DNA of 29,841 bases from a virus. Shown piece after piece: positions 22,203-29,840 of this stretch (position 1 is the first letter of the stretch; each line of letters starts with the position of its first letter). The stretch spans positions 1 through 29,841 of IMG/VR virus record IMGVR_UViG_3300031629_000047. The stretch is one strand, 5' to 3'. The position numbers were made by a program, and so were the translations under genes. Below the pieces are notes generated by a model. The model searched no databases and was not told the origin of the DNA. It saw nothing but the letters and a program-made list of their open reading frames with translations.

Positions 22203-22964
22203 CTATTTAAAGGCCTCTTGCCAAATCATTTTTGCATATTCTACTGCATCTGGCGATCCTTTCCATCTGAAGTTATCCATAGTTAATGGAAACATCTTGA
22301 CAACATCTTCTTTAGTTTTAGCTATTTCCATACAATGTTCTATAGCTCTCATACCATTGATGATAGTGTCTAAATGTCCCTCTCTGCCTTCCATATCTAC
22401 GCTGTGAACGTCTTTGTACGAACAATAGAGTAGAGCTGTCGGTTTATTGAAAAGGTCTTTGTACAGGGCTTGTTGACGCAAATCAGCATCTTTTGGGTAC
22501 CATCTGCTATCTACAGCACCAGATTTAAGTCTCTTAATGTAAGCAGTAGCTTTAGTATCTATGATTACATCTTCGAACTCAAAGTCAGTTACTCCTTTTA
22601 CATCATATTTTAACCCATATTTATCACCAGGAATCGTAATTTCCCTTTGATAAGAAATAACTTCTCCGAATTGAGGAAGCTCTTTTACAAATTGATTAGC
22701 AATTATACCAGACCAAAGACATTCGTCATCGGACGCATCTCCTTTTAGTTCTATGTATTTGGATTTTGCATAATCTATGATAGCTTCTTCATCAGTGATT
22801 TTATTTTTAAGAGCGTGTTCAGCAGATTGCTCTGCAACAGTACCCATTTTCATACGTGCGTTAGCTTCAGACTTAAAGTCATATAAATTATTAATTATCC
22901 AGTAAGGTGGAGAATCAATAAAACTATTAGTTCTTGAAGCACTATGTCTATATTCAACTTTCAT
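22203..22964 (-). CDS. RecB/Cas4-like PD-(D/E)XK exonuclease
   Basis: 254 residues from the ATG at 22964, preceded by AGGAAAA; earlier ATGs extend it by ten residues. Motifs of the RecB/Cas4 nuclease fold occur in order: GTVAEQSAEH (residues 41-50, the early G..H region), D127 in GVTDF, D136-x-K138 in IIDTKA, and Q164-x-x-x-Y168 in RQQALYKDL. These bind a metal and cut DNA ends. It probably works with the neighbouring SSB in phage replication and recombination. It is the first gene of the leftward operon and lies back to back with the plus-strand gene at 23007. Confidence 0.8.
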   Translation of the reverse strand: MKVEYRHSASRTNSFIDSPPYWIINNLYDFKSEANARMKMGTVAEQSAEHALKNKITDEEAIIDYAKSKYIELKGDASDDECLWSGIIANQFVKELPQFGEVISYQREITIPGDKYGLKYDVKGVTDFEFEDVIIDTKATAYIKRLKSGAVDSRWYPKDADLRQQALYKDLFNKPTALLYCSYKDVHSVDMEGREGHLDTIINGMRAIEHCMEIAKTKEDVVKMFPLTMDNFRWKGSPDAVEYAKMIWQEAFK

Positions 22965-23006
22965 ATTTATTTTCCTATGGTTATTAATGTTCAACGTTAT
23001 TGTAGT

Positions 23007-24127: not shown

Positions 24128-24412
24128 ATGAGCAAACTACTAAAATTTCCAAAGGGTAAAAAGAATTACTCCGAACATTTTCTAACTAACGTTAAACCAG
24201 ATGCCATAGGTGATTTCATTAAACGTGAAAATCCTTCTATGTCTCTTAGAGCTGCAGACGCAATGGCTCTTGCTATAATTTACAAAACTTATTTACAATT
24301 AGTATTTGACGAAGAAGGTCATACTATACCTCATAACATACTAGATGCTCTAGATGAGAATGACGATTCAACATTTATATGGAGCAAGAATGGTAAAGAA
24401 ACATTTCATTAA
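24128..24412 (+). CDS. Hypothetical protein in plus-strand island
   Basis: 94 residues. A basic start (MSKLLKFPKGKKNYSEHFLT) is followed by helices: AIGDFIKRENPSMSLRAADAM, then ALAIIYKTYLQLVFDEEG. The end is acidic (ALDENDDSTFIW). No ribosome site is visible ahead of the ATG. A short TAAGG-CTAT-CCTTA hairpin lies in the 27-base gap upstream. It overlaps the next gene by 23 bases. Family not recognised. Confidence 0.55.
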   Translation: MSKLLKFPKGKKNYSEHFLTNVKPDAIGDFIKRENPSMSLRAADAMALAIIYKTYLQLVFDEEGHTIPHNILDALDENDDSTFIWSKNGKETFH

Positions 24413-24659
24413 AACCTTTCCTTACGACAAATATAGAGTGGAGTGGCTTGACTGTATAAGTGACTCAGGTTGGGCAGATAAAAAAGAATTCATTAACATG
24501 AAACTAGCTCACCCAGTAAACGAGGGTTGGTTATTTTCTAAAGACAAACATTATACTAAACTGTTTGCAGCATACATACCTGAAGATGATGGTACATACA
24601 CTTATGGTGATCGTACTAATATTCCTACTTCTTGGATTGTAAAAATGGTTAAGATTTAA
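24390..24659 (+). CDS. Hypothetical protein, last gene of plus-strand island
   Basis: 89 residues. The ATG at 24390 is chosen since GGAG at 24381-24384 lies five bases ahead; an ATG 36 bases earlier has none. The sequence starts MVKKHFIKTFPYDKYRVEWL and has a WADKKEFINMK stretch followed by an aromatic beta-rich part (YTKLFAAYIPEDDGTYTYGD). This looks like a compact alpha/beta protein. It ends just ahead of the gene-free region with many inverted repeats. Confidence 0.6.
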   Translation: MVKKHFIKTFPYDKYRVEWLDCISDSGWADKKEFINMKLAHPVNEGWLFSKDKHYTKLFAAYIPEDDGTYTYGDRTNIPTSWIVKMVKI

Positions 24660-24721
24660 TAGCCTCATCGCTCATGTTATGTCCTGGATTTATAGCTTAG
24701 ATTAACATCTCCTTAACAACA

Positions 24722-24733
24722 TAACTATAGTTA
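24722..24733. promoter_or_regulatory. Perfect 12-bp palindrome, operator-like
   Basis: TAACTATAGTTA is a perfect dyad in the gene-free region between convergent genes. A GTTAAC palindrome lies at 24751-24756 and a GTCTG...CAGAC hairpin at 24757-24772. Such symmetry suits a dimeric regulator or part of an origin, but short AT palindromes are frequent in this base composition. Confidence 0.3.
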
Positions 24734-24788
24734 ATTACTATTAAATGTGAGTTAACGTCTGATCACACAGACAACAACATAATTTTAT

Positions 24789-24807
24789 ACTCTAGAAGTT
24801 ATAGAGT
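24789..24807 (+). terminator. Weak hairpin with T run behind plus-strand island
   Basis: ACTCTA (24789-24794) pairs with TAGAGT (24802-24807) around a 7-base loop, and TTT follows on the plus strand. It is 130 bases after the last plus-strand stop. The stem is short and AT-rich, so termination efficiency is doubtful. Confidence 0.35.
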
Positions 24808-24813
24808 TTTACA

Positions 24814-24837
24814 AGCTAGACAGTCTCCCATCTAGCT
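24814..24837 (-). other. Hairpin in convergent gene-free region
   Basis: In minus-strand RNA AGCTAGAT pairs with GTCTAGCT in 8 bp with one G-U pair around GGGAGACT. On the plus strand the last pair is a C-A mismatch. It sits directly 3' (minus sense) of the larger foldback at 24841-24934 and may be part of the same structure. Confidence 0.45.
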
Positions 24838-24840
24838 CTA

Positions 24841-24934
24841 TTTATTCAGTCCTTTACTGCCGTTATCTAGTATCGGTAACCTTACAAATAACTAGAAATA
24901 ATTTTGTAAGTTTAAGTCACGATAACTGAATAAA
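24841..24934 (-). ncRNA. Structured RNA candidate / complex 3' end of the early minus-strand transcript
   Basis: Read on the minus strand, this 94-base segment begins four bases after the stop of the gene at 24939 and folds back on itself. TTTATTCAG (24934-24926) pairs with CTGAATAAA (24849-24841), TTATC (24925-24921) with GATAA (24867-24863), GTGAC (24920-24916) with GTTAC (24880-24876, one G-U), CTTACAA (24910-24904) with TTGTAAG (24887-24881), and AATTA with TAGTT (one G-U) around a TTTC loop. Nesting is complete without crossing. The G-U pairs would be C-A on the plus strand. No strong U run follows, so a simple terminator is not the full explanation. A stabilising 3' structure, a small RNA or an origin-like element are options. 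Confidence 0.5.
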
Positions 24935-24938
24935 ATTC

Positions 24939-25238
24939 TTAAATTCCTTTTTTAGTATACATATCATTAACTTTATCAGCTTCTATTTGAGCTTCAGTTT
25001 TTAATGGATCCGTATATACTTCTTCTACTTTTAATTCTGAATTTTCTATCATACGTTTTTTCGTAGCTAGAATTTCAGATTTGATATGATCTTTAGCGTG
25101 TTCTAATACATGAATTAACTTTGGAAAGTTTGTACTATATATTCCATAGATAGTTAAATCATTAATCGCTGTCGCTACTCTTTGTAGTCCTCTTTGACGT
25201 TTTTCTAATCTCAGAGTCTCGCTGTCTGGCATTATCAT
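24939..25238 (-). CDS. Helical hypothetical protein, last early gene
   Basis: 99 residues starting MIMPDSETLRLEKRQRGLQR; ATGs at 25238 and 25232 are both possible. It is helical and charged, with LIHVLEHAKDHIKSEILATK and a C-terminal EAQIEADKVNDMYTKKG. It overlaps the small gene at 25162-25329 by 77 bases in another frame. It is the last gene in the long minus-strand operon and is followed by the foldback at 24841-24934. Function unknown. Confidence 0.6.
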   Translation of the reverse strand: MIMPDSETLRLEKRQRGLQRVATAINDLTIYGIYSTNFPKLIHVLEHAKDHIKSEILATKKRMIENSELKVEEVYTDPLKTEAQIEADKVNDMYTKKGI

Positions 25239-28142: not shown

Positions 28143-28323
28143 ATTGCTCCTTTTTTTTGGTTAATCTATTATATTTCATAGTTGCTTTTATATGTTCGTC
28201 CTCGAACTCTTTAGTACCAGGAATTGGATCGACATCGGCGATGAGCCAATTCCAACCTTTCCTGATGGCTAAGCCCCCAAGAGTATACGTAACAAATCGA
28301 AGTACAGTAAAAATTCCATTCAT
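28105..28323 (-). CDS. Small possible membrane-associated early protein
   Basis: 72 residues. The N-terminal 20 (NGIFTVLRFVTYTLGGLAI) are hydrophobic enough for a membrane or peripheral helix. Charged, soluble parts follow (IADVDPIPGTKEFEDEHIK, then a basic end TKKKEQYDTYRKSRRN). AAGGAG lies six bases before the ATG. The stop overlaps the next gene start. It might act at the host membrane; function unknown. Confidence 0.55.
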   Translation of the reverse strand: MNGIFTVLRFVTYTLGGLAIRKGWNWLIADVDPIPGTKEFEDEHIKATMKYNRLTKKKEQYDTYRKSRRNVS

Positions 28324-28745
28324 TAAGCTCCTTTCATTTCGTTAATTATATTTTTATATCTTGGACTGTGTTCATTGTAGTAGTTTTGTTCACCTACTTC
28401 ATTTATCCTATCCCAAGATCTTTGTATTTGACCTGCTCTCCTAGGGTATGGGCTATCCATCTCTGTATTATCTACAGATTTGCACCATTCTTCGAATATT
28501 ACTTCTGGGTTTTCACAACTAAATAGTTGTAGATCCCATTTTCTTATTTTGCATAAAGCTATTAAGCTCTCTGCTGGTAGTCTATTAATACATCTTTCAT
28601 ATTTTTGTATTTGTTGGAATGTTACATCTAAGTTACTAGATAACTGTGTTTGTGTTATCCCATTCCAAACTCTATGTAGTACCATTACTTTTGCTATATT
28701 TTTATTTACATTAAAGTTTTTAAACGCTTTTTTTCGTTTACCCAT
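28323..28745 (-). CDS. Cro/XRE-type helix-turn-helix regulator
   Basis: 140 residues from MGKRKK at 28745, where GGAGGAG lies ahead; a frame to 28757 would include this site. Residues 15-70 are an XRE-type HTH: NIAKVMVLHRVWNGITQTQL, then SSNLDVTFQQIQKYERCINR and LPAESLIALCKI. The two DNA-recognition helices are around 30-37 and 41-53, with the typical Q-x-x-x-YE spot. The C-terminal 70 residues are polar with WCKSVDNTEMDS and QRSWDRI, role unknown. It probably controls early phage promoters. No integrase is in view, so a lysogeny switch is not implied. Confidence 0.75.
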   Translation of the reverse strand: MGKRKKAFKNFNVNKNIAKVMVLHRVWNGITQTQLSSNLDVTFQQIQKYERCINRLPAESLIALCKIRKWDLQLFSCENPEVIFEEWCKSVDNTEMDSPYPRRAGQIQRSWDRINEVGEQNYYNEHSPRYKNIINEMKGA

Positions 28746-29040
28746 TGTCTCCTCCATATATTTTATTTAAAACCAATAGCTCACGCTTGTCGGAGCTAGT
28801 GGGGATTGTCACTACTCTTACTGATGGTGTCTTATCTCTATATATTTTAACTATCTGTATATATCCTCTCTTAGGGTATAGGATAGGTAGGTGGATTACT
28901 TTTAAGAAGTATTTTTTCCACCATAATATATTCTCTTTTCTTATCGAGCCAGTAAACTGCTGATTGTATAGCAGCTTAACTGCTCTTGCTAGATTGATCG
29001 GATTTTCTCTGAACTTTCCTTCTATTATTACTCGGTACAT
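28738..29040 (-). CDS. Hypothetical basic early protein
   Basis: 100 residues, MYRVIIEGKFRENPINLARA, KLLYNQQFTGSIRKENILWW, then KYFLKVIHLPILYPKRGYIQ and VRVVTIPTSSDKRELL. Rich in Lys, Arg, Leu and Ile, with a few possible beta strands. GAAAGGACAAT ahead of the ATG serves as ribosome site. It ends inside the start region of the HTH gene (eight-base overlap). Family not recognised. Confidence 0.55.
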   Translation of the reverse strand: MYRVIIEGKFRENPINLARAVKLLYNQQFTGSIRKENILWWKKYFLKVIHLPILYPKRGYIQIVKIYRDKTPSVRVVTIPTSSDKRELLVLNKIYGGDNG

Positions 29041-29049
29041 ATTGTCCTT

Positions 29050-29307
29050 TCATGCTTTTCTTACTCTAGTTACTCTATATTTATCACCTGCGTAGGTGGT
29101 ATCTTCTTTATTTTCGTATATTTTGAAGAATTTTTTTTCTACTCTATTATGATCTCTTGAGTAGCCACTACCATCAGTTAATTCTTCTGGTAGCATCTTA
29201 ATTCTAGCTGTTTTAGTAAATGGACTCTTGCTATCACTTCTATAGCTACTATATACGTTATGTTTCATATCTGCGTAGTCTACTAAGTATACTATAAGTT
29301 TACTCAT
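29050..29307 (-). CDS. Hypothetical basic early protein
   Basis: 85 residues, MSKLIVYLVDYADMKHNVYS, SYRSDSKSPFTKTARIKMLP, then HNRVEKKFFKIYENKEDTTY and GDKYRVTRVRKA. A start strand with D-x-A-D-x-K and a basic end. AGGAGGACA precedes the ATG. It could be a small alpha/beta or OB-like protein, but no motif stands out. Function unknown. Confidence 0.55.
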   Translation of the reverse strand: MSKLIVYLVDYADMKHNVYSSYRSDSKSPFTKTARIKMLPEELTDGSGYSRDHNRVEKKFFKIYENKEDTTYAGDKYRVTRVRKA

Positions 29308-29572
29308 TGTCCTCCTTGGGTATGGGTATATTTCCTAATTTTTGAGCCATTAGCATTATTGCCATCTTAGACTCACTTGAATTTAATAAATCAAACCCAG
29401 CTAGTCTGTAAAGAAGTGCACACTCTCTCTCATTAAAATTAAACTCTATTGAGTCATTTAATTTATACTGAATGTGATCTATTTCTTCTTTAGTCGCATT
29501 AACATATTGTGATATATCCATCACTCTTGCTTCTTCCGAGTCCATTGGGTCTCTCATAATTGGTTTTTCCAT
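29300..29572 (-). CDS. Helical hypothetical early protein
   Basis: 90 residues, MEKPIMRDPMDSEEARVMDI, then SQYVNATKEEIDHIQYKLND, FNERECALLYRLAGFDLLNS and SKMAIMLMAQKLG. Helical, with a hydrophobic pattern suited to a small bundle. GGAGATAG precedes the ATG. It overlaps the next gene by eight bases. The hairpin at 29589-29615 lies 17 bases upstream. Family not recognised. Confidence 0.6.
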   Translation of the reverse strand: MEKPIMRDPMDSEEARVMDISQYVNATKEEIDHIQYKLNDSIEFNFNERECALLYRLAGFDLLNSSESKMAIMLMAQKLGNIPIPKEDNE

Positions 29573-29588
29573 TCTATCTCCTATTTAT

Positions 29589-29615
29589 TAAAGGGCTAAC
29601 CCCTCATGTGAGGGG
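29589..29615 (-). promoter_or_regulatory. Leader hairpin, second copy of the GGGCTAA-CCCC element
   Basis: CCCCTC (29600-29605), ATGT loop and GAGGGG (29610-29615) make a 6-bp GC stem, rare in this genome. It is flanked by TAAAGGGCTAA (29589-29599), the same 11-base box as at 27061-27071. It lies 17 bases before the start at 29572, downstream of the partial gene ending at 29631. The minus-sense sequence after the stem is TTAGCCCTTTAATAA. Confidence 0.45.
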
Positions 29616-29630
29616 GGTGTACCCAATTAT

Positions 29631-29840
29631 CTACTTAACAGGCTTGTTGGCTAAAAGTAATTCAACTTGAGCCCTTAAAGCAGTAAGCTCTACTTTTTGT
29701 TCAGTAAACTTACCTAAGACTTGATTCATCTTATCTGCCATAATTTTATTATGGTCATGTTGAGGTTTATTCGCATACTTAAGGGGATTAGCCTTAACAA
29801 ATGCTATTCTTTCCTCTGGTGTTTTAGTTAATTTAAATTC
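29631..29840 (-). CDS. Hypothetical protein, C-terminal part (runs off window end)
   Basis: The minus frame is open from the window edge to TAG at 29631-29633; 69 residues are visible and the start lies beyond the window. Sequence parts: FKLTKTPEERIAFVKANPLK, KPQHDHNKIMADKMNQVLGK, then KVELTALRAQVELLLANKPV. The last half is a heptad-rich coiled coil. It is followed by the hairpin at 29589-29615. Family not recognised. Confidence 0.6.
   Translation of the reverse strand, partial: EFKLTKTPEERIAFVKANPLKYANKPQHDHNKIMADKMNQVLGKFTEQKVELTALRAQVELLLANKPVK

Follow-up and report, generated by a model that had tools for sequence, protein, structure and literature searches.

The 3' hairpins that stabilise phage mRNAs, and likewise the REP elements of bacteria, are simple hairpins of a single type. 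ToxI RNAs of type III toxin-antitoxin systems are small pseudoknotted RNAs in series, i.e., a tandem repeat of one unit beside toxN, and phage mimics of ToxI-type RNAs have been described. IMES RNAs are structured RNAs of marine metagenomes. GOLLD and ROOL are phage-encoded structured RNAs of unknown function that have kissing loops with covariation; members of GOLLD are often >800 nt and assemble into RNA-only multimers (PMC12286853).

The locus analyzed here is in a 29,841 nt stretch of viral DNA (the window), where a 279 nt spacer between convergent genes is filled by modules C, B, E and F (Table 1). As with 3' hairpins and REP elements, these are structured RNAs at or between gene ends with a proposed protection of the upstream message, but a single slot here combines pseudoknotted modules that are not homologous to one another. 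The likeness to ToxI is in small pseudoknotted RNAs in series, but the units are unrelated. The modules do not represent a type III toxin-antitoxin RNA, as they are non-identical and the tested neighbor genes have no PADLOC toxin match. Like GOLLD and ROOL, they are phage-encoded structured RNAs with covariation and probable kissing loops, but they are 30–110 nt, in contrast to GOLLD, and have no sequence relation to either, the Rfam models of GOLLD and ROOL giving no match. With IMES RNAs they share the property of being marine structured RNAs. The IMES-5 model matches the window at 13.3 bits compared with a gathering score of 96.1 (E 4.7), which is a chance match to a non-member.

A search of the window and 17 loci with Rfam 15 (4227 models) gave nothing at the gathering threshold, and array-bearing loci, including those of HTVC111P and HTVC115P, gave nothing at E <= 0.5. 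The best match for the window spacer is mir-122 at E 0.42, which is chance level. ARAGORN finds no tRNA or tmRNA genes in the window. No earlier description of such structured RNAs in pelagiphages was found in the literature searched, where subscription journals were thinly covered. These compact looped-back folds of SAR11-type phages thus appear to be a previously undescribed family, a prior description being possible.

Modules of the convergent spacer

Table 1. Positions of genes, modules and C-module helices (window numbering, except the last three rows, which give positions in the named contigs)
Feature	Position	Strand	Properties
Last gene of rightward operon, convergent	24354..24659	+	101 aa, phrog_25889
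Module F	24655..24745	-	closing TTAATAG/CTATTAA, inner stem GTTATGT/ACATAAC, pseudoknot ATTAAC/GTTAAT
Module E	24748..24810	-	two small hairpins
Module B	24813..24838	-	11-bp hairpin, GAGA tetraloop, invariant G-U pair
C-family RNA module	24841..24934	-	arms, alignment, pair table, covariance model
C module, outer stem P1	24925-24934 / 24841-24850	-	
C module, P3	24903-24910 / 24881-24888	-	
C module, small hairpin P4	24874-24876 / 24860-24862	-	CCG / CGG
C module, kissing loops	24891-24896 / 24866-24871	-	UCUAGU / ACUAGA
Last gene of leftward operon	24939..25238	-	99 aa, anchor for collecting relatives
Other-group spacer, L188	1495-2435		extra modules
Other-group spacer, L191	2213-2660		extra modules
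Other-group spacer, L179	3374-3750		extra modules

An earlier note on this DNA described a nested fold-back of 94 nt. The fold-back is real, but it is not isolated: further modules follow it in the spacer. Its 10 nt perfect arms and its inner 7 bp arms (CTTACAA/TTGTAAG) are in the sequence, and it begins four bases past the TAA of the 99 aa minus-strand gene. A second contig (L056) has an array identical to that of the window at every base, evidence that this is not an artefact of assembly.

The minus strand of the 94 nt element has a fold of -17.9 kcal/mol. When compared with shuffled sequences, as the note had proposed, its stability is weakly above chance (z -1.87, 8 of 200 shuffles as good), and 1057 of 5950 same-size stretches within the window (about 18%) fold at least as well. 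The energy is near chance and by itself too weak for the claim; on comparative evidence, and not on energy, the inverted repeat is real. The statement that no U run follows and that this is not an ordinary terminator holds: there are no Rho-independent terminator-like sites (GC-rich stem and U run) at 24600–25000 on either strand.

Module B has 9 of 11 pairs compensated; its arms read CTAGA/TCTAG in the window and CCAGA/TCTGG in relatives. A search of bacterial genomes with the B pattern gave eight matches, none with complementary arms on inspection. Module E is common, over most of its length, to the window and three other loci (L061, L085 and L190), all with distinct sequences. Module F extends into the convergent gene, over its last codons. 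Five sequences of F show compensation in 2 of 6 pseudoknot pairs and 2 of 7 stem pairs. Module D has an outer and an inner stem and, like F, a pseudoknot; compensation is seen in 2 of the 4 pseudoknot pairs of D (TAGG/CCTA, TACG/CGTA, TTGG/CCAA). Compensatory changes in B, C, D and F are well above shuffled and slid controls.

Slot A, which is ahead of B, is the most variable slot and is occupied in the window by the C module. Slot-A loops of relatives (e.g., L095, L046, L111 and L203, and likewise L180, L182, L018 and L055) display palindromes of 6 to 10 nt. Their sequences vary from one relative to the next, but the palindromes are kept by paired changes (GGTACC to GGATCC, GATATC to GACGTC, GGGATCCC to TCGTACGA). 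The mean longest slot-A palindrome is 7.64 compared with 5.79 in shuffles, with 0 of 200 shuffles as high, related rows not being independent. Ordinary hairpins account for some of the longer palindromes. In the hairpin that precedes B, the loop has CTCC in phages HTVC111P, HTVC202P and HTVC026P (L218, L222, L223) and HTVC112P (L221); this is partly complementary to GGGAG or GAG of B and may form a loop-loop contact. The outer stems of several modules start and finish with TTAA, which may represent exchange points or merely AT content.

Structure and covariation of RNA family C

The family C alignment consists of 13 distinct sequences, window element included. Relatives sharing the C core were found by gene synteny and pattern, and the core (CTTACA...TTTCTAGTT...TGTAAG...ACCGATACTAGATAACGG) is also visible by eye; in the modules of relatives it occurs behind several unrelated outer stems. 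In the hand-corrected alignment, which was used for the pair table, all 8 outer stem pairs are standard in all 13 members, with 2–4 pair types each. Before correction, with the window row shifted by one base at the stem, 7 of 8 outer stem pairs have changes in both partners; over the full structure, 98.0% of cells are paired compared with 87.0% in shuffles. P3 shows a UA to CG change and P4 shows UA to AU to GC changes. The UCUAGU/ACUAGA loops are complementary in 12 of the 13 members, yet invariant; without variation, this contact is plausible rather than proven.

The window element has the covarying outer stem, P3, the P4 hairpin and the UCUAGU/ACUAGA loops, but the family P2 (CUUG/CAAG) is lost. 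Judged by the alignment, the fold-back is a divergent member of family C. The covariance model scores it at 83.5 bits with an E-value of 2e-18, which is partly circular because the element is among the model's 13 sequences. Family C has no match in the cultured-phage loci examined, in phage records (blastn) or in bacterial genomes.

The five nested helices proposed previously are maintained in part. When base changes that keep helices are weighed against those that break them, the outer and 7-bp helices stand, but helices 2, 3 and 5 (UAUCG/CGAUA, GUGAC/GUUAC and AAUUA/UAGUU) fail: they pair in 58.8% of cells compared with 58.5% in shuffles, and their compensatory changes in the family C alignment show no clear excess. 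The bases of these helices fit instead the CCG/CGG hairpin and the UCUAGU/ACUAGA loop-loop contact. The earlier argument that G-U pairs identify the RNA strand falls with them, as it rested on two of the three rejected helices.

However, other strand evidence gives strong support to a structured minus-strand RNA that follows the last gene of the leftward operon. The supported helices of B, C, D and F have 50 G-U cells and 3 A-C cells on the strand of the leftward operon, and the G-U pair of module B is invariant in 17 of 17 sequences. In 40 of 40 spacers the sense strand folds more stably than the antisense strand (mean z -2.68 vs -1.71). These comparisons assign the RNA to the strand of the leftward operon, and conservation at the RNA level is established.

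Relatives, carriers and turnover of cassettes

With the 99 aa gene as anchor, 58 loci were collected in viral contigs; a nuclease-like gene (22203–22994) as anchor gave 80 loci. The spacer behind the 99 aa gene is represented by 43 distinct sequences; those with both ends located measure 35 to about 360 nt. About 40 distinct spacers of relatives consist of separate fold-back modules in differing combinations and have no end-to-end alignment. One 102 nt C sequence adjoins five different slot-A modules. Combinations differ between near-identical phages, e.g., L026 and L029 have a flanking gene that is 99.7% identical and different arrays around an identical C module. The comparisons establish rapid cassette exchange: arrays turn over faster than flanking genes diverge, and we read this as exchange by recombination.

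Comparison of loci likewise establishes the position of the array, which follows a stop codon where two genes converge. The ORF upstream of B usually ends 40–110 nt ahead of B, and the next ORF after B is convergent in 65 of 68 scorable copies (simple ORF calls, related phages counted separately). Phages with different flanking genes also have module C at convergent junctions, where its outer stems are unrelated but complementary. Cultured Pelagibacter phages HTVC111P, HTVC112P, HTVC202P and HTVC026P have the A+B cassette at a convergent junction, the one at which their records start. At the convergent junctions of HTVC103P and HTVC104P the genes overlap and there is no spacer. In HTVC115P, module D is between two co-directional genes, and the modules are thus not confined to operon ends. 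In other phage groups, spacers of up to 942 nt have many more, unclassified fold-back modules in addition to C (Table 1).

The 101 aa gene has relatives in cultured pelagiphages. The cultured-phage carriers and the protein matches point to a SAR11-type phage; the host is one we only infer, as a Methylophilales phage is among the closest protein matches. In the leftward operon there is a weak helix-turn-helix gene (28323–28757, minus strand; Pfam HTH_3, E 9e-5, just below cut-off). A strong GC-rich hairpin (GGGCTAACCCC...GAGGGG) is present at positions 29595–29630, between minus-strand genes 29300–29572 and 29631–29840.

Possible roles of the array

The fast-changing row of cassettes that follows the final gene of the operon is most likely a protected tail of its message. 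Stated in full, and held tentatively, the array would be a modular 3' untranslated end of the leftward operon whose compact folds protect the transcript. The 94 nt element would be one cassette of this end, each cassette closed by its own stem and several probably locked by a pseudoknot or kissing loop. The leftward transcript would end, or be trimmed, within the spacer, and 3'-to-5' exonucleases would be stopped by the compact folds. If so, any sufficiently rigid fold may replace another, which would explain both the free swapping of non-homologous modules and the absence of a U-run terminator. Of the functional guesses, the earlier suggestion of a stabilising 3' structure or small RNA is still the best. 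Against a protective end are the co-directional copy of D and the invariant letters in loops (GAGA tetraloop, CUAG loops), which may reflect specific partners rather than generic rigidity; the rapid turnover would also fit an arms race.

A trans-acting role is kept open by the invariant loops, the presence of D in a co-directional spacer and the self-complementary slot-A loops. It is possible, with less confidence, that the cassettes are autonomous RNAs, processed from the operon tail and driven apart by an arms race, where they would act as regulators or as decoys for RNA-binding proteins or nucleases of the host or of competitors. Each module is self-closed with its own tertiary lock, combinations vary between near-identical phages, and the paired changes in slot-A palindromes are as expected for RNA-RNA pairing. 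However, no target, partner protein or separate promoter was identified, and beyond the weak helix-turn-helix gene the neighboring genes match no known defence or toxin family. Somewhat more doubtful is the proposal that SAR11 phages have a combinatorial library of small pseudoknotted RNAs in one slot, swapped between phages and each acting alone (e.g., through loops that pair with their own kind or with other RNAs) in a rapidly evolving conflict with hosts or rival phages.

An unconventional, possibly bidirectional terminator or attenuator between convergent operons would account for the fixed position at convergent junctions and for both strands of the window spacer folding somewhat better than shuffles. 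It is unlikely, as there is no U tract, the conservation is strand-specific, elaborate pseudoknots are not required for termination and D is found in a co-directional spacer. A DNA-level element, i.e., a recombination or packaging site or protein-binding dyads, is improbable: slot-A palindromes in relatives and rapid cassette exchange would fit, but the excess of G-U over A-C departures and the pseudoknot covariation are RNA signatures, and the palindromes are diverse rather than one operator. A chance fold-back without function, which the weak energy z-scores of the single sequence would allow, is refuted by covariation, with compensatory changes in four module families.

At least four covarying modules, unmatched in Rfam, are found in one slot and turn over faster than the neighboring genes. 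This raises the question of which selection favors such a variety of rigid RNA folds behind a single operon. Members are present in cultured phages with cultured hosts (HTVC111P, HTVC202P and HTVC026P), so direct RNA mapping is feasible in pelagiphages, which are among the most abundant viruses of the ocean.
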